From: Salegentibacter lacus | GTDB lineage: Bacteria; Bacteroidota; Bacteroidia; Flavobacteriales; Flavobacteriaceae | Assembly (NCBI RefSeq): GCF_020164555.1 | Contig: NZ_JAIQZB010000013.1 | Coordinates: 1-64,000 of the forward strand | Direction of reading: 5' to 3' | Length of the DNA: 64,000 bases | Shown here: positions 15,762 through 56,058 of the stretch, piece by piece | How positions within the stretch are numbered: the stretch's first letter is position 1 | Layout: each line of letters begins with the position of its first letter | Notes under the pieces: generated by a model | The model's input: the letters and a program-made list of their open reading frames with translations, nothing else | Database searches by the model: none | What the model was told of the DNA's origin: nothing | Made by a program: the position numbers and the translations under genes

Positions 15762-17765
15762 ATGGAAATTCCTATCTTACAGGATATTGTTATTATTCTG
15801 GGACTCTCAATTTTGATTATCCTTTTATTTCAAAAGATAAAAGTGCCATCAATCCTGGGATTTCTTCTGGCGGGAATTATTGCAGGCCCACATGCTTTCA
15901 ATCTTATAAGTTCCTCACACGAAGTAGAATTACTTTCTGAAATTGGGATTATTTTCCTGCTTTTTGTTATTGGAATTGAACTCTCGATAAAAGAGCTTCT
16001 TGCCATGAAAAACACGGTCTTAATTGGCGGTGGTCTTCAGGTTGGTGGTACTATTCTGTTTACCACAATAGTTGCGTATTTTTTTGGTTTACCTTTAAAT
16101 TCCGCTGTATTCTTAGGGTTTCTATTCTCTTTAAGTAGTACGGCAATTGTTTTAAAGCTTATTCAGGAACGCGGCGAAATTACCGCTCCTCACGGTCGGG
16201 TGGCACTTGGTATTCTTATTTTCCAGGATATAATCGTGGTTCCTATGATGTTGCTTACCCCGATTTTGGCAGGTGACGGTGGCGATCTTCTTACCACTGT
16301 GCTTATACTTATCGCTAAAATTGTTGGAGTTGGCGTAGTAATCTATTTATTGGCGCGGTATATTGTACCTCGAATTTTTAGTATGGTGGTAAAAACAAAA
16401 AGTAAAGAACTTTTTATTTTAACTACTGTAGTTTTCTGTTTTGCCATTGCGTGGCTAACTTCTTCGGTTGGATTATCGCTGGCTTTAGGTGCTTTTTTTG
16501 CGGGACTTATTATTTCTGAATCGGAATACAGCCACCAGGCTACCGTAAATGTTTTGCCTTTTAGAGAGATCTTTATTAGCTTCTTTTTTATCTCGGTAGG
16601 AACATTGCTGAATTTAGAATTCTTCATCCAAAACATTTTAATGATCCTGCTCCTGGTCATTGGAGTTGTATTTTTAAAAATGTTGGTAGTGGGTTTAACG
16701 GTTATGTTGCTTAAATACCCTCCAAGAACAGTCTTTTTAAGTTTATTTAGCTTATTCCAGGTAGGGGAGTTTTCTTTATTGCTTTCCGGAGTTGGATTGG
16801 ATAATAATATTATTCCAGATAGTATTTACCAGTATTTCCTGGCAATTTCGATCATTACTATGGGCTTGACCCCTTTTCTAATAGCAGCCGCGCCAAAAAT
16901 TACGTATTCAATTTTAAAGGCCAGGGTCCCATCTTCAGTAAGACATAGATTGGAAAGTCTTAATAAACATAAAACTACTGATGAAACCCAGGAAGCAAAG
17001 AACCTGGAAGATCATTTAATTATTATCGGCTACGGAATTAACGGTGAAAATATTGCGAAAGCAGCCCGAAACGCTGAAATTCCCTATGTGATTTTAGATA
17101 CCGATCCGGTTACATTTAAAAAAGCAAAGAATAACAATGAACCTATAATTTTTGGGGATGCTACAAACTCGCTAATCTTGAAACATCTTCACGTTCAGGA
17201 TGCCCGTGTTGTAGTAATTGCTATTTCAGATCCCGGTGCAACTAAAAAGATTATCAGCAATGTGCGTTTATATTCTAAAACCGCTTTTATTATTGTAAGA
17301 ACACGCTACGTTAGAGAGATTGAAGAAAATATTAAACTGGGTGCCGATGAAGTGATCCCGGAAGAATTTGAAACTTCTATTGAAATCTTTAATCGTGTAC
17401 TTAAAAAATACCTAGTGCCCTATAACGAAATAATGGATTTTACCGCGAGCATACGCTCTTCAGACTATGAGATGTTAACATCAGTAAAAGGCAGGCCCCA
17501 TAAACCCTCATTACAACATTTGCACATTCCCAATCGTGAAATTGTAACTTTAAGTGTTCAGCAAAATAACAGTGATATTGTGGGGAAAAGTATTCAAACC
17601 TCAGGAATTGGTAAGAATTTTAGGGTTACCGTGCTGGCAATAAAAAGAGATACCCAATACATAACCGAAATCCTTCCAGATACCAAGATTAAACAAGGGG
17701 ATTTATTATATATTTTTGGGAACCCTGTGAATATAAATAGATTAAACGAAGCGCTTTCGTATTAA
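15762..17765 (+). CDS. Kef-type cation:proton antiporter with TrkA domains
   Basis: A 667-residue CPA2 family membrane antiporter for K+ or Na+ against H+. About twelve hydrophobic segments cover residues 5-385. A TrkA-N (RCK) Rossmann domain starts near 420 (LIIIGYGINGENIAKAARNAEIPYVILDTD), and a TrkA-C domain covers about 575-665. The RCK domains normally bind NAD(H) or other nucleotides to gate the pore. Its stop codon overlaps that of the convergent SulP gene by two bases, so the two genes leave no room for a shared terminator. Confidence 0.93.
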   Translation: MEIPILQDIVIILGLSILIILLFQKIKVPSILGFLLAGIIAGPHAFNLISSSHEVELLSEIGIIFLLFVIGIELSIKELLAMKNTVLIGGGLQVGGTILFTTIVAYFFGLPLNSAVFLGFLFSLSSTAIVLKLIQERGEITAPHGRVALGILIFQDIIVVPMMLLTPILAGDGGDLLTTVLILIAKIVGVGVVIYLLARYIVPRIFSMVVKTKSKELFILTTVVFCFAIAWLTSSVGLSLALGAFFAGLIISESEYSHQATVNVLPFREIFISFFFISVGTLLNLEFFIQNILMILLLVIGVVFLKMLVVGLTVMLLKYPPRTVFLSLFSLFQVGEFSLLLSGVGLDNNIIPDSIYQYFLAISIITMGLTPFLIAAAPKITYSILKARVPSSVRHRLESLNKHKTTDETQEAKNLEDHLIIIGYGINGENIAKAARNAEIPYVILDTDPVTFKKAKNNNEPIIFGDATNSLILKHLHVQDARVVVIAISDPGATKKIISNVRLYSKTAFIIVRTRYVREIEENIKLGADEVIPEEFETSIEIFNRVLKKYLVPYNEIMDFTASIRSSDYEMLTSVKGRPHKPSLQHLHIPNREIVTLSVQQNNSDIVGKSIQTSGIGKNFRVTVLAIKRDTQYITEILPDTKIKQGDLLYIFGNPVNINRLNEALSY

Positions 17766-20008
17766 GAAACCTTTGTGGGATCGTATAATTCAGAAAATTC
17801 AATATTCCCATTTTCACGATGAAAAAATGCAGTGGCCAGGCCTATTTTACCTTGAGTAATTCGTTGGTTTAGGTATTGACTTTGTTTCATAATTCTTTTC
17901 TGTGATTCTTTAAGGCTCCATCTTGTCAAAAGATCGGCATAAATGTAAAAATCTTTCTCCTCTAATTGAGCAGGAATTTGTTTTGCTTTTAAAGCTTCAA
18001 CAATTAGCGAATCAGGGTTTTGGTATCCATTTTCCTTATACTCCTTCAAAGCTTCCAAATAAATTTTATTAGAAGAATTTCCCATCATCAGAATCAAACG
18101 AGCTCCCTGCTGCTTACAGGCAATTTCTATACTTTTAATGATATGGCTATCTACCAGGTTTCCGGCCGCCCTAATTGGAATCAGATCCCCAATTCCGGTA
18201 TTCATCATCACATTTAAAGGCTCTCTCAAATCTATACAATTAACAACGGTAGCAAGGGGTGGCGAATTAATAAAATCCATTAATTCTTTATTCCGCAGGC
18301 GTCTGGAAACGAGTTTTCCATCTATATAACGAGAATTTCCATCCTTTAAATATTCAAGAATTTCGTGTGGAGTAGATTTTTCTTTAGATTCTTCAATATC
18401 TTCCCGAACAAAGTCCAATTCCTTCCCTGCCGAATATTTATCTTTAAGCCCAATGATACTTACATTTATATTATTCTCTTCGGCGAAAGTAGTTTTAAAA
18501 TCTTCAAAAATCTCTAAAATATCGTGGTCTATATAGCTGGCAAAAGTTGCATCAATGATCACGTTAGAATTTTTCGGAACATGCCAAAGACTGTTTTTAA
18601 TCGAAGCTTTATTAAAAAATGAAACTTCGTTAGAAAGCTCCAGCCTTATGGTTTCTCCTCTAAAAATCTTAGTGTTTTCAATAAAAAAGGCATTATGATA
18701 ATTGCTACGAAGTAAAAAGAAAATACTCACCAGCGAGCCTATGAATATACCAATTAATAGATCGGTTAGAATAATTGCCACCACGGTTACCACAAAAGGA
18801 ATAAACTGGTTCCATCCCTTTTTATACATCGTGCTAATTACATCCCACGAAGCCAGTTTATAACCAACTACCAACAAAATAACTGCCAGGCTGGAAAGCG
18901 GAATAAGGTTCAGAATGGTACTTAGAAATAAAACGCTTAATAGGAGAAAAATCCCATGTAAAATTGTGGAAAGCTTTGTTTCGGCACCCGCATTTATATT
19001 TACTGAACTTCTAACAATCACCGAGGTTAATGGAATACCACCTACCAATCCCGCTAAAGTATTCCCAACTCCCTGGGCAACTAATTCCCGGTTGGGTGGA
19101 GTTTTTCGTTTATGTGGGTCAATCTCATCTGCAGCTTCAATGGCCAATAAACTGGCTATAGAAGCAATAAGTGTTATCGTAATTGCCACACCCCAAACTT
19201 CTGGATTGGTAATTGAATTGAAATCTGGAAAGGTAACAAGTTCGCTTACCCTGTCTATTTTCGGAATATTCACCAAATATTCTTCTCCTAAATGAAGAAC
19301 CGGTGCGATATATTTAAAAAGCAGGTTTAAAAATACGCCAAGAATTACCACAATTAAAGATGGCGGTAAAAGCTTAAAGTTTTTCAACGGACTTTTCTCC
19401 CAGAATATAATGATGGCAAGTGAAATTAACGATAAAACTACCGCACCGGGATGCAGGGAGTAAAAAAAGTTTTTAAACATAGCTGATGCCTGTGCAAACA
19501 TATTATCTCTTACACCAAAACTGGCACCGGAATCTTCTACAAACCCAATAGCATAAGGCAATTGAGCTATGATTAAAATAATTCCAATGGCGGCAAGTAA
19601 ACCTTTAATAATATTTGAAGGCATATAATCAGCAATAAGTCCGGCTTTAAGAATTCCCAAAATAAACTGAAAAATTCCACCGAGCACCACAGCCATTAAA
19701 AACACATCAAAACTTCCAAGAGAAGCTATAGAGGCTAAAACCACCGCTGTTAAGCTGGCAGCAGGCCCACTTACACTTACCGAAGAATGACTAACACTTC
19801 CTATTACAATTCCGCCAATAATCCCAGAGATTAGTCCCGACACCAAAGGTGCACCACTAGCGAGGGCAATTCCAAGACATAAAGGAAGAGCCACAAGAAA
19901 CACTACAATACTGGAAGGAATATCCTTATCCAGGCGGGAAAACAATGGTTTGCTCAAAGCAGATTGATCTACCCTTTCCTTGAAATTAAAATTACCGTTT
20001 TTGCCCAC
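17762..20008 (-). CDS. SulP family anion transporter with STAS and degenerate carbonic-anhydrase-like domain
   Basis: A 748-residue protein in three parts: SulP membrane transporter (about 20-440, hydrophobic segments, LPLCLGIALASGAP), STAS domain (about 445-540), and a beta-carbonic-anhydrase-like domain (about 550-740). SulP/CA fusions are usually read as bicarbonate transporters coupled to CO2 hydration. Here the Zn motif CxDSR is CIDLRE (about 591-596) and RAAGN is kept, but the second Zn motif, normally GHxxCG, reads GNSSNK (about 641-646), so the His and second Cys ligands are lost. Transport is likely; CA activity is not. Start is GTG, with no in-frame ATG nearby. Confidence 0.92.
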   Translation of the reverse strand: MGKNGNFNFKERVDQSALSKPLFSRLDKDIPSSIVVFLVALPLCLGIALASGAPLVSGLISGIIGGIVIGSVSHSSVSVSGPAASLTAVVLASIASLGSFDVFLMAVVLGGIFQFILGILKAGLIADYMPSNIIKGLLAAIGIILIIAQLPYAIGFVEDSGASFGVRDNMFAQASAMFKNFFYSLHPGAVVLSLISLAIIIFWEKSPLKNFKLLPPSLIVVILGVFLNLLFKYIAPVLHLGEEYLVNIPKIDRVSELVTFPDFNSITNPEVWGVAITITLIASIASLLAIEAADEIDPHKRKTPPNRELVAQGVGNTLAGLVGGIPLTSVIVRSSVNINAGAETKLSTILHGIFLLLSVLFLSTILNLIPLSSLAVILLVVGYKLASWDVISTMYKKGWNQFIPFVVTVVAIILTDLLIGIFIGSLVSIFFLLRSNYHNAFFIENTKIFRGETIRLELSNEVSFFNKASIKNSLWHVPKNSNVIIDATFASYIDHDILEIFEDFKTTFAEENNINVSIIGLKDKYSAGKELDFVREDIEESKEKSTPHEILEYLKDGNSRYIDGKLVSRRLRNKELMDFINSPPLATVVNCIDLREPLNVMMNTGIGDLIPIRAAGNLVDSHIIKSIEIACKQQGARLILMMGNSSNKIYLEALKEYKENGYQNPDSLIVEALKAKQIPAQLEEKDFYIYADLLTRWSLKESQKRIMKQSQYLNQRITQGKIGLATAFFHRENGNIEFSELYDPTKVS

Positions 20009-20141
20009 TAAATTTAAGTATAAGGAATGATTAAAATTAATTACTGAAAATAGGAAATTTAGTGATTACCAACCTAATTTCTGTAAAACATTCAAAAGCT
20101 TTCTTAAATAATACCAAAAAAATATGATGCAATTCTACTCT

Positions 20142-20174
20142 TATTGGTGTTATAATTATAAATAGATATCTTTA
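20142..20174 (+). promoter_or_regulatory. Promoter of the AarF/UbiB gene
   Basis: TATTG (TTG at 20144..20146) and TATCTTTA (20167..20174) are separated by 20 bases and match the Bacteroidota -33/-7 layout; the start codon is 29 bases downstream. Confidence 0.55.
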
Positions 20175-20202
20175 AAATTAATAACCTACAACCAATAATT
20201 AT

Positions 20203-21873
20203 ATGTCTGTACTGCCTGACAATCTTTTGCGTTACCGGAAATTTATAGGTTTTATGCTAAAATATGGGAACAGCGATTTGTTTTCAAACACGGCTTCTCA
20301 AGCAATGGATGAAACTTCAGAAAAAAATAACGCCCACCATACTTACGATCAAACTCCCGATGAACTTGTTGAAGACTTAAAAAACATGGGCCCAACCTAT
20401 ATAAAAATGGGTCAACTGCTTTCTACCCGCCCAGATCTTCTTCCAGACGCTTATTTAGAAGCTTTAGCTACTTTACAGGATGATGTACCGGCAATTCCTT
20501 ATGAGGAAGTACATCGTATTGTGGAAGAAGAAATTGGAACCAGGATCTCCAAAGCTTTTGAAAGTTTTGATAAAGAACCTCTTGCCAGCGCTTCTATTGG
20601 GCAGGTGCATAAAGCTACCCTAAGATCTGGTAAACCGGTGGCGGTAAAAATTCAAAGGCCGGGAATTAAAAAACAGTTCCTTTCAGATTTAGATACTTTA
20701 AAAGAGCTGGCCGATCTTGCTGTTAAACATAGTACAACCGCTCAAAAATATGCTTTTGATGATGTTTTAACCGAATTAAGACGTATTCTATTACAGGAGT
20801 TAGATTACCATCGGGAAGCTCAAAACTTAATCACGCTTGGTGACAATTTAAAGGATTTTGAATATTTAATTGTTCCGCAACCTATTCAGGATTATTCTGC
20901 TGCCAAGGTACTCACCATGGAATATATTGAAGGCAAAAAGATCACTTCAATATCACCACTTAAACAAATTGAAGTAGATTATTCGTCTCTTGTAGATCAG
21001 CTGGTAAAAGCCTATTTACAGCAGGTAATCAATGATGGATTTGTACACGCCGATCCACATCCGGGAAATATTCAATTTACAAAAGATGACAAAATTGCTC
21101 TTATAGATCTTGGAATGGTGGCTAAGTTCAGCCCGGCAATCAAAGAATTTATTTTAGAGCTTTTAATGGCTATTAGTAAAAATAATGGCGAAGAAACCGC
21201 TCGCGTTTTGTTAAGTATGAGTGAGCTTACCGAAGATGCTAATTTAAAATTCTTCAGGAAGACCATCAGCGATATTATAATGGATAGCGAGCATAGTAGG
21301 GCAAAAGATATGCAAACAGGCCGCCTGCTTATCCAATTAAACCGACTCGCAGCCAATTGCGGAATTCACCTTCCTGTAGAAGTAAATATTCTAGGAAAGA
21401 TCCTTTTAAATATGGATCAAATTATCGCTGTTTTAGATCCCGATTTTGATCTTAGAGATGCTATAAAACGTCACTCCAGTAAAATGATGCGCGATAAAAT
21501 GTATGAAGAATTAAAGCCTGAAAACTTCTTCTCATCCATCCTGGCCTCAAAGAAATTCCTGGAATATTTACCCGATCGTTTAAATATAATTTCAAAAAAC
21601 CTTGCTGAAAACGAATTTAAAATTAAAATCGAAGCTTTTGATGAAAAACGGGTTACCGATGGTTTTCAGAAAGTGGCCAACCGCATTACCTTAGGCTTAA
21701 TTATAGCAGCAATGATTATAGGTGCGTCAATGTTAATGCAGGTTCCTTCAGATTTTACTATTTTTGGATATCCAGGTCTTGCAATGCTATTTTTCCTGTT
21801 AGCCGCAATTGGTGGGATTGTTCTTAGTTATATCATTATTTTCAGGGACGAAAATCTTAATAATAAAGATTAG
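20203..21873 (+). CDS. ABC1/AarF/UbiB family kinase-like protein
   Basis: A 556-residue atypical kinase-like ATPase, family ADCK/UbiB, linked in other organisms to ubiquinone or isoprenoid metabolism. The KxGQ-type motif is visible as GPTYIKMGQLLSTRPDLLP (about 63-81), the Ala-rich nucleotide loop region as PLASASIGQVHKATL, VAVKIQRPG holds the Lys (about 148), and VHADPHPGNIQF (about 282-293) and IDLGMVAKF supply the metal-binding Asn and Asp. Two membrane helices close the protein (about 490-550). Flavobacteria use menaquinone, so the role is likely in quinone or membrane lipid homeostasis; this is inference. Confidence 0.92.
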   Translation: MSVLPDNLLRYRKFIGFMLKYGNSDLFSNTASQAMDETSEKNNAHHTYDQTPDELVEDLKNMGPTYIKMGQLLSTRPDLLPDAYLEALATLQDDVPAIPYEEVHRIVEEEIGTRISKAFESFDKEPLASASIGQVHKATLRSGKPVAVKIQRPGIKKQFLSDLDTLKELADLAVKHSTTAQKYAFDDVLTELRRILLQELDYHREAQNLITLGDNLKDFEYLIVPQPIQDYSAAKVLTMEYIEGKKITSISPLKQIEVDYSSLVDQLVKAYLQQVINDGFVHADPHPGNIQFTKDDKIALIDLGMVAKFSPAIKEFILELLMAISKNNGEETARVLLSMSELTEDANLKFFRKTISDIIMDSEHSRAKDMQTGRLLIQLNRLAANCGIHLPVEVNILGKILLNMDQIIAVLDPDFDLRDAIKRHSSKMMRDKMYEELKPENFFSSILASKKFLEYLPDRLNIISKNLAENEFKIKIEAFDEKRVTDGFQKVANRITLGLIIAAMIIGASMLMQVPSDFTIFGYPGLAMLFFLLAAIGGIVLSYIIIFRDENLNNKD

Positions 21874-50709: not shown

Positions 50710-51432
50710 TTATTCTATCAGTTTTTGCAATCTGGAATCCAGGATTATTTTTCGACTTTTAGATTTCTGTAGCAAAGCTTTAAAAACTTTAAATTCCATC
50801 TCAGGATTATGAATCCCTTGTTTTCTAATATGCTCATCATTAATCTTTTTATCTCCAAGTTCATCCCTATATCCTTGTACATAAGGAGTTTTAAAGAAGG
50901 TGAAACCAGTCAAATATACCTCTTTACATTCGGTATTTAATACACTGTAAACAGTGGAAAATCCAACGGTTGGTTGAAACCCGAACAAAGATTTAGTAAT
51001 TTTATTATATAATAAAGGAGAGAATATATACGTCTTTACACACTTTAAATGCCTTTTATAAAAATTAAGATGGGCTATTAACCCTTTAATATCAGAATTT
51101 GGATGTATTATTTTTTGAATCCCCAAATCCTCAAATCTTTTTAAATCTATAGGTCCCCCTCCACTATAATTATTTTCAAAAAAACTATGAAACAGAAAAG
51201 TAAATTTAGTCCCCAAATAATCTGATTGTTTCTCATCCCAAACCTGGGCTGCTTTATTGATTCTAATTACAATATCATACGAATCTATAACACCCCCACT
51301 TTTTTTATCAAAAACCGAATCAGCAGCTCCCACTATGGCTACACGTTTATTTTTAAAATTCTTTTTAATGCTAAAGATCCTTAAGGATAATAACATTAAA
51401 ATAACGGCATAAAAAGATTTAATTAGCTTCAA
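50710..51432 (-). CDS. GT29 (sialyltransferase-like) glycosyltransferase
   Basis: A 240-residue enzyme with all GT29 sialylmotifs: L as RVAIVGAADSVFDKKSGGVI-DSYDIVIRINKA (about 30-62), S as PTVGFSTVYSVLNTECKEVYLTGFTFF (about 153-179), and the H-x4-E motif (HNPEMEF, near 208). In GT29 the donor is CMP-sialic acid. An N-terminal hydrophobic segment (about 8-20) may anchor it. It starts at TTG, overlapping the TGA stop of the HAD gene, so it is coupled to it. The neighbouring CMP-sugar synthetase supports use of a CMP-activated acid sugar. Confidence in the family is good; sugar identity is unknown. Confidence 0.82.
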   Translation of the reverse strand: MKLIKSFYAVILMLLSLRIFSIKKNFKNKRVAIVGAADSVFDKKSGGVIDSYDIVIRINKAAQVWDEKQSDYLGTKFTFLFHSFFENNYSGGGPIDLKRFEDLGIQKIIHPNSDIKGLIAHLNFYKRHLKCVKTYIFSPLLYNKITKSLFGFQPTVGFSTVYSVLNTECKEVYLTGFTFFKTPYVQGYRDELGDKKINDEHIRKQGIHNPEMEFKVFKALLQKSKSRKIILDSRLQKLIE

Positions 51433-52052
51433 GGAAATGAAATTATATAATTTTTGCCCTTATCCATAAGGGACTTATTATTATACCCAAAGAAATCAAT
51501 TTTATTTGATTCAGCAGCCTCCAAATCATTTTTAGAGTCTCCAATTAGACAAAGCTCTTTCGGGGTATAATTAAATTTTTCAATCAAATTTCTTACCAGT
51601 TCTATTTTTGGGGTTGGGGATCCTTCTATGCTTTTAAAATATTGAGATATACTTAATTGATTGCATAAATAACTTAACTCATTTTCATCTGATCCAGAAA
51701 CGATATGCATAGTATAATTATGCCTATTCTTCTTTATATAATTGATAGTTTCTGAAATCAAGTTTTTTCTTAAACACAGCTTTTCTCTCATTATTTCTGA
51801 ATAACTATCAGTAAGTCTACTCAATTTTTCTTCGCTTAATGCTTCGTTTCTTATTTCTTTAAAGAAATATCGAAATTTCACATATCGTGATAATCCTGCA
51901 TTTTCCTCATGGAAGTCTAAAAGCTCCTCAACTTCATTATTTGGATATTTCTCCAGAACTTTTTTAAATCCGTATTCTCTTATAGGCATAGAATCTAAAA
52001 TAACCCCGTCGAAATCCCATAATAATACCGACTTATCTATAAAATCTCTCAT
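51429..52052 (-). CDS. HAD family phosphatase
   Basis: A 207-residue HAD subfamily I hydrolase with motif I LLWDFDGVILDSMP (nucleophile Asp near 13), the SGS motif in MHIVSGSDENE and motif IV GDSKNDLEAAES. It overlaps the CMP-sugar synthetase gene by 20 bases and the GT29 gene by four bases. Next to an aldolase and a cytidylyltransferase it would fit removal of a phosphate from a phospho-ulosonate, as NeuNAc-9-phosphatase does in the animal sialic-acid pathway. That role is inferred from context. Confidence 0.87.
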   Translation of the reverse strand: MRDFIDKSVLLWDFDGVILDSMPIREYGFKKVLEKYPNNEVEELLDFHEENAGLSRYVKFRYFFKEIRNEALSEEKLSRLTDSYSEIMREKLCLRKNLISETINYIKKNRHNYTMHIVSGSDENELSYLCNQLSISQYFKSIEGSPTPKIELVRNLIEKFNYTPKELCLIGDSKNDLEAAESNKIDFFGYNNKSLMDKGKNYIISFP

Positions 52053-52719
52053 AAATTGCTTCTGCTATCTTAAAATCTTCTTCATAATCTATGTCCAAAG
52101 AAACCATCTTATTTTGAGTGTATAAAATTGGTCTTGATCCGGTTCTATTGCCATTTTTAAAATTTTTATGAGAAGTTAAGAATATTGCGTTATTTATTTC
52201 AAACCACTCCGATAAATCCTGAGTTCTTGGCCAAGGCAATTTCGTGTTATTATTCACAATTTTTCCCGAATTCTTATCAAGAAGGAATTCTTTATAATCT
52301 CTTCCTGATATCAAAGAATCATAATTTTTTCCTAAACCATCTTCATATTTTTTAATTGCCTCTAAATACTCCTTTGCATTGCAAAAGGGAGAAGTAACAT
52401 GAGTCCATAAAATAGCATCTCCGGAACACACCTCTCCAGCGTGCTTAATAAGTTCGCCCAAAGGCGTATTTGATTTACCCAATGTATTAGGCCTATCAAT
52501 TATTTTCAAGTTCTTTATTTTATTCTGAAAGTTTTTAGTAATCTCAAAACAGGCTTTATCATTGGTGGAAATTATTAGTTCAAAATTTTCTGGCAGGTTC
52601 ATTAACTGACTTAATTTTAAAAACAACAGTCCTCCGCTAATTCCAGCAAAAGCACGAGTATTCTTTTTAATAACACGTTTACTTCCTTTTCTTACGGGTA
52701 TAAAAATGGAATATTTCAT
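52033..52719 (-). CDS. CMP-sugar synthetase (NeuA-like cytidylyltransferase)
   Basis: A 228-residue nucleotidyltransferase with the cytidylyltransferase opening YSIFIPVRKGSKRVIKKNTR (CTP loop, about 3-22), LIISTND, WTHVTSPF and LDIDYEEDFKIAE at the end. This places it near CMP-NeuAc/CMP-Kdo synthetases. These activate an ulosonic acid with CTP. It is joined to the aldolase gene by a TAATG overlap and to the HAD gene by a 20-base overlap, so three enzymes of one pathway are likely. Confidence 0.88.
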   Translation of the reverse strand: MKYSIFIPVRKGSKRVIKKNTRAFAGISGGLLFLKLSQLMNLPENFELIISTNDKACFEITKNFQNKIKNLKIIDRPNTLGKSNTPLGELIKHAGEVCSGDAILWTHVTSPFCNAKEYLEAIKKYEDGLGKNYDSLISGRDYKEFLLDKNSGKIVNNNTKLPWPRTQDLSEWFEINNAIFLTSHKNFKNGNRTGSRPILYTQNKMVSLDIDYEEDFKIAEAIYERFYR

Positions 52720-54257
52720 TAAAAAAAGGAATAAATTGAAGAGTTTTCAATATTGTATTCAGAAGGAGTAATCGCTTTAATTTTAAAATCCTCTGCAAGA
52801 TAATGCTTAAAAACAATCTCATTTTCTTCAAACAATTCTTTTTGAGCTTTATTAAATAAATTACCATAACCATCATAGCCAATTAGGTAAATTCTCTCAG
52901 CTTTAAAAGCTTTTGCCACTTTTAAACAATATTCGGTTACTGAGCCAGGAAAATGATAATTTTCTTCTGCAGATAATTTAAAAAATTTAAGATCCGTAAA
53001 ATCTTCAAAGATTTCAAAAGAAGGTGGCCCGACCAATGAACGATTCTTAATCTCCTCTGGTGATAAATAATCTTTAAGTCGCTGTAACTCCTTACCCGGA
53101 ATTAAATGAATCTGTGGATTTTTTATGCCCCTGAATATTATAGAGTTTTTTGAACTGGCGAAAATTATAGGAATCTCGGGTTCGCTTTTTAAAAAACTAT
53201 GAATAGCGGCCTTATGAATTTCTGCCGACTCCCCACCACCAATTATTAAAACATTAGAATAAGAGGTGGTAGGCTTAAACACCTCTATTGACAACTTTTT
53301 ATTAACATGATCAATCTCTGCCGTGACTTCTCGTACAATATCATTTAATGAAAAATATCTTTTGTTAACCTGTTCCATTACCTTATTCTGAGGGAGAGAA
53401 AAACTACCTGAAACCATATAGGCAAGGTTGGTACCCCAGTTGTATTTTGGTTTTAGTTTCAAAAAGTGTTCTACTATTTTTATTAAAATATCAAAATCTA
53501 TTTCCAATGTTCCTCGTTGGTACAAGACACTTAGTAACAATTCCGTTTTAAGATTTCCAGCTCCTCTTCCCATTCCATCTATGGTAGCATCGATAATCTG
53601 AACTCCACAATTGATAGCTTCTAAGGAATTAGCAAGGGCCATTTCGAGGTTATTATGCCCGTGAAAACCAAGAGGTATAGTGAGTCCTGATTTCAGGTAG
53701 TTAAAAATGGTTTTTATATCCTGAGGGAAAAGCCCACCATAAGAATCGACCACATAAAAATAATCACATGTTTTATTCAATAATTCAAGTTGCTGCTTTT
53801 TTGGAAATTCAGTCTCCCATTTGCTGGCATACATCAAATTAAAAGCAACCTCAAAACCAAGATTTTTCACCCTATCTGCCAATTCTATACCTCTTAAAAA
53901 GTTTTGGGGAGCAACAGCAAGGCGAATCAATTTAACTTTCTCTATACAGGGTGTTAAAAGGTCTTCAACTTCATGCGTACGAACATCTTTTTCATTTAAT
54001 ATTATCGCAAGATCCTTTTTAGTCTGTTTCTTAATTCTCTCAATTAAAAAATCTGGTAAATAAAAATGACCGCCGGCATAGTTTTCTTTTGGAGGGGATT
54101 TATAACCTATTTCAATAATGTCTATAGGTAATTTATTCATCGCTGAAAGATAATTATCTACTAAACTTTCATCAAAATCCCAATTAGTATAATAACCTCC
54201 ATCACGCAGAGTACAGTCTAGAATTATCAGCTTATTAGTTATTGATTGTTTCTCCAT
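52719..54257 (-). CDS. DRE-TIM (4-hydroxy-2-oxovalerate aldolase-like) aldolase with extra C-terminal domain
   Basis: A 512-residue protein in two parts. Residues about 1-275 form the HMGL-like aldolase domain: LDCTLRDGGYYTNWDFD, PLGFHGHNNLEMALANS (H-x-H-N metal site) and GMGRGAGN. The C-terminal about 220 residues (NVLIIGGGESAEIHKAAI...IIFASSKNSI...RIYLIGYDGYG) resemble a Rossmann-like DUF115-type domain that I cannot name firmly. DmpG-type enzymes split or form 4-hydroxy-2-oxo acids with pyruvate, the same chemistry as making an ulosonic acid. I chose the ATG at 54257, one base after the ABC gene stop, over an in-frame TTG at 54278. Confidence 0.83.
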   Translation of the reverse strand: MEKQSITNKLIILDCTLRDGGYYTNWDFDESLVDNYLSAMNKLPIDIIEIGYKSPPKENYAGGHFYLPDFLIERIKKQTKKDLAIILNEKDVRTHEVEDLLTPCIEKVKLIRLAVAPQNFLRGIELADRVKNLGFEVAFNLMYASKWETEFPKKQQLELLNKTCDYFYVVDSYGGLFPQDIKTIFNYLKSGLTIPLGFHGHNNLEMALANSLEAINCGVQIIDATIDGMGRGAGNLKTELLLSVLYQRGTLEIDFDILIKIVEHFLKLKPKYNWGTNLAYMVSGSFSLPQNKVMEQVNKRYFSLNDIVREVTAEIDHVNKKLSIEVFKPTTSYSNVLIIGGGESAEIHKAAIHSFLKSEPEIPIIFASSKNSIIFRGIKNPQIHLIPGKELQRLKDYLSPEEIKNRSLVGPPSFEIFEDFTDLKFFKLSAEENYHFPGSVTEYCLKVAKAFKAERIYLIGYDGYGNLFNKAQKELFEENEIVFKHYLAEDFKIKAITPSEYNIENSSIYSFF

Positions 54258-54258
54258 T

Positions 54259-56058
54259 TTATAATTCCTGTAATTCAACCATTTTTCTAAATGATTTCGA
54301 AGACATCAGTAATTCGCCGTAGCTTCCGGTTGCCTTGATTTCGCCATCTTCTAACAAAATAATCATATCGGCATTTTTTACAGTAGTTAATCGGTGCGCT
54401 ATAATAATAAAGGTATAATTTCCTTTTAAATCATCAATATTTTTTTGAATTTCAAATTCTGTTTGTGTGTCAAGAGAGGAGGTGGCTTCATCCATCAATA
54501 AGATTTCAGCATTTTTATAAAGTTCCCGGGCAATAGATATTCTTTGTTTTTGCCCTCCGCTAATGTTTACCCCGTTTACTCCTAGAAGCGTATCTTCATT
54601 TTCGGGTAAACCTAAAATAAAATCATATATATTCGCCTGCTTAACGGCCTCATAAAATTTTATAAGGTTCGATTCATTTTTTTCTTCCCAGAAACTTACA
54701 TTATTAAATACACTATCATTAAAAATTGTAGCATCCTGGACTATGTATCCTAATAGATTTCTGTAAGATCTATGATCTATTTCCTTAAAATTAATATCAT
54801 CTACATAAAAATCTCCTCTTGCAGGCGTTAATAATCCGGTTAAAATATTTATCAATGTGGTTTTACCAGAGCCACTGGGTCCAACTATAGCAACGCTGCT
54901 GTTCTTTCTAATACTTATCGATATATCTTTTAAAGTCTGGTCCTGATTAATTTTATAACTAAAACTAACATTTTTTAAGGTTAAACCATGTTTCAGTTTT
55001 TTAATTACTTTCTTGCCCCCATAATTTTCCTGATCTTTTTGCAATACTTTATCAAAGCTTTTTAAATTTTCCAGACTACCTGAATTACCCAAAAATAAAT
55101 TCCATTGTTGTTGAGAAGCCATAAAAAACGAGAAAGCCCTGTAAATGAAAAGTAAGCTTAATAATACACTTGTAATTTCCTGATTAAAAAATTCAACATA
55201 AAGCAAAATAGCACCAAAAATAACGATTATTATTAATGGTTCTCTAATACCAAAAAGGGCTGCATCTACTATTCCCAATCGCTGTTGTACCTTTTCCATT
55301 TTAAGAATACTTAACCTCAATTTATTTACATACGATTCGATTAGCCCTGTGGCTTTTAGATACTTAAAAAGATTTATATTTTCCAACAATAATTTATGAT
55401 AGTAATTGGTCTCTACGACAAGTTTTCTGGAAAAATATTTAGTTCTTCTATATAGAAATTTAGAAAAAAGACTTATAATTAAACCTCCCATTAGCACCAA
55501 TAGCGTAAATTTCCAATCTACCCCAAGTGATAATGAGAAATAGGCCAGTACTAAAACAAAAAAATTAACAGTCTTAAAATAAAATTTATACGCCACACTT
55601 ATTTTTGCCACATCACCCCCAAGGGTATTTTGTACCCTTCCGGCATCAAGACTTACAAATGATGGATATTTATAATTACTAAAAAGAGAGATACTATTAA
55701 ACCTTATGTTACGCATCATTTTTTGTTGCCATACTACTCTAAGGTAAGCATCCAGGAACTTTACCATTCCTTTTAAACTAAACAACAAGAAAATAAACAT
55801 AAAAACATCTAAGAGTTCTGTTTCCAATCCTAACCAATCAAAAAATATTTTATCTAAGAAATGACTTCCCGGTATTTCGGGTTGTTCCTTTTCACTTAAT
55901 ACTATTTGCAAAAGTGGAATAAAAAGGGCAAGCCCCAACCCATCTAATATACCTGTAAAAAAACTTAGAAAAAAACTTAGAAATACTCTCCATTTAAGAT
56001 AAGAATAAAAAAACAGCAGATAGCTGAATTGTTTTCTAACAAATTGCTTAAGCAGCAT
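54259..56058 (-). CDS. ABC transporter, permease-ATPase fusion (PglK/MsbA-like flippase)
   Basis: A 599-residue half-transporter. Six membrane helices (about 15-320) are followed by an ATPase domain with Walker A AIVGPSGSGKTTLIN (near 395), signature ISGGQKQRISIARELY and Walker B AEILLMDEATSSLDTQ. The type resembles PglK, which flips the lipid-linked oligosaccharide in Campylobacter. No Wzx flippase is visible in this window, so this may fill that role. It leads into the aldolase gene with one base between stop and start. Confidence 0.9.
   Translation of the reverse strand: MLLKQFVRKQFSYLLFFYSYLKWRVFLSFFLSFFTGILDGLGLALFIPLLQIVLSEKEQPEIPGSHFLDKIFFDWLGLETELLDVFMFIFLLFSLKGMVKFLDAYLRVVWQQKMMRNIRFNSISLFSNYKYPSFVSLDAGRVQNTLGGDVAKISVAYKFYFKTVNFFVLVLAYFSLSLGVDWKFTLLVLMGGLIISLFSKFLYRRTKYFSRKLVVETNYYHKLLLENINLFKYLKATGLIESYVNKLRLSILKMEKVQQRLGIVDAALFGIREPLIIIVIFGAILLYVEFFNQEITSVLLSLLFIYRAFSFFMASQQQWNLFLGNSGSLENLKSFDKVLQKDQENYGGKKVIKKLKHGLTLKNVSFSYKINQDQTLKDISISIRKNSSVAIVGPSGSGKTTLINILTGLLTPARGDFYVDDINFKEIDHRSYRNLLGYIVQDATIFNDSVFNNVSFWEEKNESNLIKFYEAVKQANIYDFILGLPENEDTLLGVNGVNISGGQKQRISIARELYKNAEILLMDEATSSLDTQTEFEIQKNIDDLKGNYTFIIIAHRLTTVKNADMIILLEDGEIKATGSYGELLMSSKSFRKMVELQEL

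Follow-up and report, generated by a model that had tools for sequence, protein, structure and literature searches.

Ulosonic acids such as sialic acid, Kdo (3-deoxy-D-manno-octulosonic acid) and their kin are usually sought through the synthases NeuB or KdsA, and a surface-polysaccharide locus of Salegentibacter lacus raises the question whether such an acid can be made and activated by another route. The analysed window comprises the first 64,000 nucleotides of contig NZ_JAIQZB010000013.1 (assembly GCF_020164555.1); this contig (C34) is 139.8 kb long and the genome 4.05 Mb. At positions 50710-54257 four genes, all on the minus strand, follow each other in the order DRE-TIM aldolase, cytidine triphosphate (CTP) transferase, HAD phosphatase and GT29 enzyme in a locus with Wza/Wzc-like genes. 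Successive genes overlap by 1, 20 and 4 bases, as had been described in an initial annotation of this DNA and as was confirmed from the open reading frames (ORFs). Judged from the sequences, the four genes probably form a self-contained pathway to a 3-deoxy-2-ulosonic acid activated with cytidine monophosphate (CMP) and to its transfer into the surface polysaccharide. The aldolase-based ulosonate route proposed in the initial annotation was upheld as the best account by gene linkage, by genomes without NeuB and by one alphaproteobacterial plasmid. No description of the four-gene module was found in an open-licence literature library with the terms used. Throughout, some genes (PIG-L, formyltransferase, NeuC, Wza/Wzc, KdsA, PGDH, Gfo/Idh, SIS, transaldolase, GT4) were named by reading the sequence and not by profile matches.

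Relatives of the aldolase were collected by scanning 84,980 species genomes with two peptide patterns drawn from a five-member alignment, which yielded 182 relatives. The best-scoring 80 of these 182, a set biased to close relatives, were fetched and gave 81 loci together with the window; in 79 of them and in the window the aldolase was called as an ORF, so that 80 loci were countable. Locus L091, where the aldolase was not called as an ORF, was left out of the HAD and synthetase counts. Linkage to a CTP transferase was scored downstream, on the same strand and within five genes, by seed BLAST and, for L029 and L043, by Pfam. A CTP transferase was found within five genes of the aldolase in 81/81 loci and within three in 80/81, being the fourth gene after the aldolase in L063. 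By seed BLAST it lay within five genes in 78/80 loci, within three in 77/80, and was the very next gene in 68/78; it was the second gene in L029 and L043 (Pfam) and directly followed the aldolase match in L091. Among the other genes of the same loci, 42/689 preceded a CTP-transferase homologue within three genes, and set against 80/81 for the aldolase this background argues that the linkage is not due to chance. An HAD gene lay downstream in 74 of the 80 countable loci. The gap between the aldolase and the next gene, measured with mechanically set gene starts, was at most 20 bp in 77/80 loci, and the next gene was always on the same strand. Besides the aldolase, HAD and CTP-transferase families, no gene family was found near the aldolase in more than 42/80 loci, the commonest being glycosyltransferase-like.

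A further sample of 296 genomes, drawn evenly across the phylum and thus without a lean to close relatives, contained the aldolase in eight genomes (that of the window included). In 8/8 the HAD gene lay no more than 3 kb away on that contig; in G439 it was found as a shortened match. The module is patchy, with 5/199 genomes of the family to which S. lacus belongs carrying it, and the nearest named relatives of the aldolase gene are from Salegentibacter (63-71% identity). A relative was also found on a plasmid of the alphaproteobacterium Leisingera caerulea (L126:6998-10000), 27.5% identical over 98% of the length and with the C-terminal domain kept; it lies in a polysaccharide locus and is followed by genes annotated as KdsB and HAD. 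Of three Leisingera matches, L. caerulea was the one for which the surroundings were read. Around relatives of the N-terminal domain only, on plasmids of Mesorhizobium, Priestia, Paraburkholderia and Legionella, no CTP-transferase annotation was present within 6-7 kb on each side in an incomplete gene table; the record of a Niallia relative is unannotated at the match. Phage records gave two partial matches. A co-occurrence search of genomes, as suggested in the initial annotation, thus tied the aldolase to a CMP-synthetase homologue and an HAD enzyme, NeuB-less genomes included.

Single loci depart from this pattern in their own ways. In L028 (9989-15143) the aldolase is followed by a NeuA-like and a KdsB-like CTP transferase, an HAD gene and two GT29 genes. 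In L088 (11551-13283) a PfkB kinase related to kinases of 2-keto-3-deoxygluconate and 2-keto-3-deoxygalactonate directly follows the CTP transferase, at the place of the HAD gene, which gives a faint hint of a C6 product. One further genome of the 296-genome sample, G358, has a close HAD relative by itself (C7:18326-18904; L118:7320-7943); neither an aldolase nor genes recognised as sugar-related were seen in the surrounding 16 kb that were read.

The identity of the CTP transferase is informative on the product. Characterised enzymes of the NeuA and KdsB families activate 3-deoxy-2-ulosonic acids. The linked CTP transferase was NeuA/PseF-like only in 53/80 loci, KdsB-like only in 25/80 and of both kinds in 2/80; a profile comparison shows the two families to be related (hhalign 95.8%). 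The exchange of NeuA-like for KdsB-like enzymes beside a constant aldolase and HAD enzyme is the strongest hint of a 3-deoxy-2-ulosonic acid as product. Two linked KdsB-likes were scanned against curated models: that of L021 scored above one Kdo-synthetase subfamily cut-off and that of L035 just above another, one of the two reaching 278.7 bits (cut-off 255), and both stayed below the kdsB equivalog. The two families are compared in PMC2901514.

A tree of the CTP transferases was calculated with FastTree and midpoint-rooted; some of its deep nodes have low support (0.016 to 0.54), and three weak linked NeuA-likes (those of L046 and L050 and the second gene of L033) were excluded by a score limit. 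A clade of 51 (support 0.994) united 50 of the 53 linked NeuA-likes placed in the tree, that of the window among them, with the enzyme of L091, and contained none of eight NeuB-linked enzymes. Of the linked KdsBs, 23/27 formed their own clade (0.921); the other four grouped with KdsBs linked to HpcH-type aldolases (0.789). GT29 occurred in 22/80 loci, comprising 21/53 of NeuA type, 0/25 of KdsB type and one mixed locus. The p-value for NeuA type versus KdsB type (Fisher, 7e-5) is indicative only, as shared ancestry is ignored. A family resembling PF07388 (polysialyltransferase), of which one member was Pfam-tested, was found in 11 loci (8 NeuA-type, 3 KdsB-type) and never together with GT29.

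The aldolase of the window (52719..54257, 512 amino acids) starts at ATG 54257 or, alternatively, at an in-frame TTG at 54278. It matched PF00682 (HMGL-like) with 90.7 bits (cut-off 29) and therefore belongs to that family. Its two best NCBIfam matches were models of 4-hydroxy-2-oxovalerate aldolase, both below cut-off (119.2 versus 229 bits; TIGR03217, 103.4 versus 286). An AlphaFold model built on 80 sequences had a mean predicted local distance difference score (pLDDT) of 89.7, compared with 64.1 for an earlier five-sequence model. The putative catalytic TIM-barrel domain at the N terminus (residues ~8-311; 53325..54236) accounts for the structural matches: residues 1-311 of the model matched PDB 3dxi (BVU_2661) with Z 40.1 and root-mean-square deviation (rmsd) 1.4 over 298 residues at 48% identity, and the model matched DmpG (PDB 1nvm) with Z 30.3 and rmsd 4.1 over 311 residues. 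R18, D19, H199 and H201 are invariant in 80/80 aligned members and presumably correspond to the Arg, the metal-binding Asp and the metal-binding His-x-His of the DmpG-type class. By its anatomy the enzyme is predicted to work like a metal-dependent pyruvate aldolase. The assignment to the 4-hydroxy-2-oxovalerate type in the initial annotation was too narrow: the fold and the Arg, Asp and His-x-His residues agree with it, whereas the histidine of the RDGxH motif is a tyrosine. A plain DmpG aldolase was rejected on account of this missing catalytic histidine (Y22) and of the score below the TIGR03217 cut-off. The module aldolase stands as a separate family and carries an additional domain.

This C-terminal domain of about 185 residues (residues ~330-512; 52722..53270) had been missed in the initial annotation and is common to the aligned members. 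It scored 21.5 bits against the MptE-like family (cut-off 34.6). In hhalign it was matched to the GT29 alignment with a probability of 52.5% and an E-value of 1.4e-4 over 41-75 columns, compared with at most 1.6% for seven control families. A sequence search of the PDB with the domain gave no match of note, and the whole-model fold searches covered essentially aldolase residues 5-317. G341, G342, E390, D462, Y464 and E478 are invariant in the window and 79 aligned relatives. This domain may be a transferase; its likeness to GT29 is weak.

The second gene (52033..52719) encodes a NeuA/PseF-like homologue of CMP-ulosonate synthetases. It matched the CMP-NeuAc synthetase 6ifd with an E-value of 7.9e-8 and keeps the metal-binding Asp pair, the N-terminal R..GS..K loop and the position of the carboxylate-binding Arg. 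Its best and only NCBIfam match was PseF (TIGR03584), far below cut-off (43.9 versus 205.7 bits), which does not make it a PseF. Among the 53 aldolase-linked NeuA-likes, D209 was conserved in 52/53, D211 in 51/53, R10 and K19 in 53/53, and the position of R165 in 41/53. The roles of the Asp pair and of the carboxylate-binding Arg in CMP-synthetases are those given in PMC2901514.

The third gene (51429..52052) was confirmed as an HAD phosphatase by its match to PF13419 (HAD_2; 74.9 bits, cut-off 23.8). It carries a family-specific cap motif, [GA]-G-L-S-R-Y-x-K, with G-G in 70/74 linked HADs and A-G in the window; WDFDGV was found in 71/74, and S119, K149, G171-D172 and N175-D176 are conserved among the 74. 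Against the KdsC-type model TIGR01670 it reached 21.3 bits (cut-off 106.95), which excludes it from that family. The last gene (50710..51432, TTG start) encodes a GT29 enzyme (sialyltransferase family; PF00777, 50 bits, cut-off 23), a putative ulosonyltransferase. The L- and S-type blocks and H-x4-E (H208, E213) were conserved throughout 23 relatives, and Y-R, not H-Y, stands at the place of motif III; these blocks are what we take to be the L, S and III sialylmotifs. The full set of sialylmotifs claimed for it in the initial annotation therefore stands for L, S and H-x4-E, and motif III is divergent.

Whether the module depends on a NeuB or KdsA encoded elsewhere was assessed in whole genomes. 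The initial annotation saw neither gene, and neither lies in the window; however, a NeuB-family gene, PseI, was found at C34:71023-71739, about 7 kb past the window end on the same strand and in the same locus, a second NeuB on contig C47, and one KdsA-like enzyme in the genome, together with one similar to 3-deoxy-arabinoheptulosonate 7-phosphate (DAHP) synthase. The other end of C47 carries NeuA-like and NeuC-like genes. Four CTP transferases were found in the genome, KdsB-like (C53), PseF (C34), NeuA-like (C47) and the window's own, and these can be paired one-to-one with one KdsA, two NeuB and one aldolase, which is an accounting argument and not a proof. PseI is part of a pseudaminic acid (Pse) pathway at C34:70783-77147 (L003:10783-17147), in which PseB, PseC, PseF and PseI exceeded their NCBIfam cut-offs and a PseH-like gene stayed below. 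Since this pathway has its own PseF (318 bits) and the one-to-one pairing is possible, the nearby PseI leaves the four-gene unit unexplained. A NeuB or KdsA-like gene just outside the window had been named beforehand as evidence that would speak against the route; PseI is literally such a gene, but it belongs to the Pse pathway with its own PseF. PIG-L-like and formyltransferase-like genes in the Pse pathway are a hint that the same polysaccharide may also contain Pse in modified form.

The NeuB test was extended to whole genomes for 47 loci out of the 80, most of them from isolates; the other 33 are metagenome-assembled or uncultured by title. NeuB was found over cut-off in 38/47 carrier genomes and was lacking in 9/47 (L021, L038, L040, L043, L047, L049, L057, L068 and L092; L057 is a complete chromosome), Sphingobacterium paludis, S. 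deserti and Pedobacter sp. PAMC26386 among them. The single sub-threshold NeuB hit in these nine falls on the KdsA-like gene. The two PF00793 enzymes of each genome are, judged by their size and score, a KdsA and a DAHP synthase. Two CTP transferases were counted in seven of the nine and three in two; one adjoins the aldolase in each, and the one found elsewhere scores 172-198 bits and is KdsB-like by score. The NeuA-type module occurs among them in L038, L043, L047 and L049. Dependence of the module on a nearby NeuB was therefore rejected, as a separate PseF accompanies PseI and NeuB-less carriers exist. In the fetched DNA, NeuB lay within 25/80 loci, and KdsA gave no match in any of the 80.

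Groups with an unrelated aldolase were found around distant relatives of the HAD enzyme, 27-31% identical to the sample-search query and 25-30% to the HAD of the window. In the 9-12 kb stretches read around seven of these, a CTP transferase was present in 7/7 and an aldolase of the HpcH/HpaI superfamily in 5/7 (L119, L121, L123, L124 and L125); the stretches of L120 and L122 contained no HpcH aldolase. In L039 an HpcH aldolase with a KdsB right after it (16902-20399) lies 4 kb beyond the DRE-TIM trio. Enzymes of the HpcH/HpaI superfamily are pyruvate aldolases; for three that were scanned the nearest NCBIfam models were 2-dehydro-3-deoxyglucarate and 4-hydroxy-2-oxoheptanedioate aldolases, all below cut-off. 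These HpcH/HpaI and KdsB/NeuA-like groups, which all include a distant HAD relative except for the pair in L039, seem to be another gene group for aldolase-based ulosonate synthesis, unrelated to the first. They share the plan of the module and have HAD enzymes and CTP transferases of related families, and differ in the aldolase superfamily, in an HAD only 25-31% identical and in extra oxidoreductase and phosphosugar genes: several have PGDH-like and Gfo/Idh-like genes, L121 and L123 SIS-domain genes, and L123 also a transaldolase gene. That two unrelated aldolase folds stand near the same kinds of partners supports the aldolase as the maker of the acid.

The acid activated by the module could instead be housekeeping Kdo, with the additional KdsB- or NeuA-like enzyme raising the supply of CMP-Kdo for the capsule and the aldolase and HAD enzyme making or trimming another substituent or acting in cleavage. 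In each of the ten carriers examined, one of the two PF00793 enzymes is KdsA-like; the KdsB-likes of L021 and L035 exceed Kdo-synthetase subfamily cut-offs, though not that of the kdsB equivalog, and the HpcH enzymes of some loci could form the C-C bond instead. Kdo as a substrate would, however, need no aldolase, and in most seed-found loci (68/78) the aldolase is immediately followed by the CTP transferase. The NeuA-like version is by family not a Kdo enzyme, and the two unrelated aldolase families near the same partners also argue that the aldolase makes the acid, so that this explanation is regarded as unlikely.

It is quite unlikely that the neighbouring Pse pathway draws on the window's CTP transferase as an additional CMP-Pse synthetase and on its GT29 for the transfer of Pse, with the aldolase unrelated. 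PseB, PseC, PseF and PseI do lie above curated cut-offs at C34:71-77 kb, on the same strand and in the same locus, and PseF is the best and only NCBIfam match of the window enzyme. That pathway is, however, served by its own PseF, the window enzyme falls far short of the PseF cut-off and sits in the clade of 51, all aldolase-linked, and the NeuA-type carriers L038, L043, L047 and L049 have no NeuB match at all. It is very improbable that the CTP transferase, a remote member of its family, activates some other aldolase-made acid and that GT29, present in just 22/80 loci, is incidental, because the replacement by KdsB-like enzymes and both the GT29 and the PF07388-like transferases indicate CMP-ulosonates, and the linked enzymes keep the carboxylate-binding Arg position (41/53) and the metal Asp pair (52/53 and 51/53), residues with roles given in PMC2901514.

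Besides the neighbouring Pse pathway, several observations weigh against an aldolase-based ulosonate pathway. The CTP transferase has a borderline score against PF02348 (CTP_transf_3), with 22.7 bits for the protein (cut-off 22.6) and 21.3 when the genome was searched. Where the Neisseria enzyme has a Gln in contact with the sugar, 44/53 linked NeuA-likes have a His, a change that would fit a different sugar. Three of the 53 (L029, L043 and the fourth gene of L033) fall outside the clade of 51, beyond the three weaker ones excluded from the tree. The RDGxH histidine of DmpG, which we take to be the catalytic base, is replaced by Y22 in 80/80 aldolases, so that the chemistry may differ; Y22 aligns gap-free with a His of PDB 8ih7. 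The nearest solved relative, 3dxi from Bacteroides vulgatus, was solved as the N-terminal domain alone and is named in its entry as a 'putative aldolase', and we know of no activity, substrate or product for any member of this family. In 10/80 loci (L029, L032, L033, L036, L043, L046, L048, L050, L063 and L085; Pfam was run on L029 and L043) an HpcH/HpaI gene separates the DRE-TIM aldolase from the NeuA-like gene, and in these one of the two aldolases may do something else; in L063 the inserted gene is apparently broken into short ORFs. The HAD gene is missing in 6/80 loci, two of which end at a contig edge, and the HAD enzyme is the sole indication of a phosphate on the intermediate. Finally, 8/9 of the NeuB-less genomes are drafts.

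The aldolase-based ulosonate pathway, which is still preferred, would run in four steps. The DRE-TIM aldolase would use pyruvate, in the form of its metal-bound enolate, to extend a phosphorylated aldose aldehyde from central metabolism, giving the phosphate of a 4-hydroxy-2-oxo (3-deoxy-ulosonic) acid and so standing in for the PEP (phosphoenolpyruvate)-dependent NeuB or KdsA. The HAD enzyme would then remove the phosphate, and the NeuA-like enzyme (KdsB-like in other genomes) would couple the free acid to CMP. GT29, elsewhere perhaps a PF07388-like or other transferase, would pass the acid to the glycan. Since no further conserved sugar-making gene stands beside the three enzymes, the aldehyde is probably an ordinary metabolite (a triose-, tetrose- or pentose-phosphate), and the product would probably have 6 to 8 carbons. 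The product is probably not Kdo itself, because the ten carrier genomes checked already have KdsA. What the sequences show directly is the set of genes with their overlaps in the window, its recurrence, the exchange of two CMP-synthetase families, its occurrence in NeuB-less genomes and the conservation of residues known as catalytic in related enzymes; the reactions, the substrate and the product are inferred.

The module shares with the NeuB/NeuA pathways to sialic, pseudaminic and legionaminic acid a CTP transferase of the NeuA/PseF kind, a following GT29 and a product expected to be a 3-deoxy-2-ulosonic acid; it differs in having no NeuB and a pyruvate-aldolase-like enzyme in its place. 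With KdsA/KdsC/KdsB it shares the proposed order of steps, from C-C bond formation to an ulosonate phosphate, through an HAD phosphatase, to a CTP transferase, and in 27/80 module loci a KdsB homologue, two of these also with a NeuA-like enzyme; its aldolase, however, has the DRE-TIM fold, and the HAD of the window is HAD_2-like and not KdsC-like. DmpG (1nvm) has the same fold, and its Arg-Asp and His-x-His are also found in the module aldolase, whereas the module aldolase carries an MptE/GT29-like C-terminal domain in place of what is presumably the communication domain of DmpG, and no dehydrogenase partner gene was seen in the module.

In a wider reading, for which we see about an even chance, the module would represent a third, widespread bacterial way into CMP-activated ulosonic acids that bypasses the PEP-dependent synthases. 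Pyruvate aldolases from two or more unrelated superfamilies, namely HpcH/HpaI and a DRE-TIM type fused to a sialyltransferase-like domain, would have been recruited before related HAD and CTP-transferase families, giving access to chain lengths or stereochemistry beyond those of NeuB and KdsA, and the fused domain would perhaps hand on or transfer the CMP-sugar. Such a route would be driven by pyruvate rather than PEP and likely lead to a new sugar, and its aldolase/CMP-synthetase pairs would be useful for making activated rare sugars. If the aldolase replaces NeuB and KdsA, some Bacteroidota that seemingly lack such sugars beyond Kdo may carry them, gut species perhaps included, as 3dxi comes from Bacteroides vulgatus.

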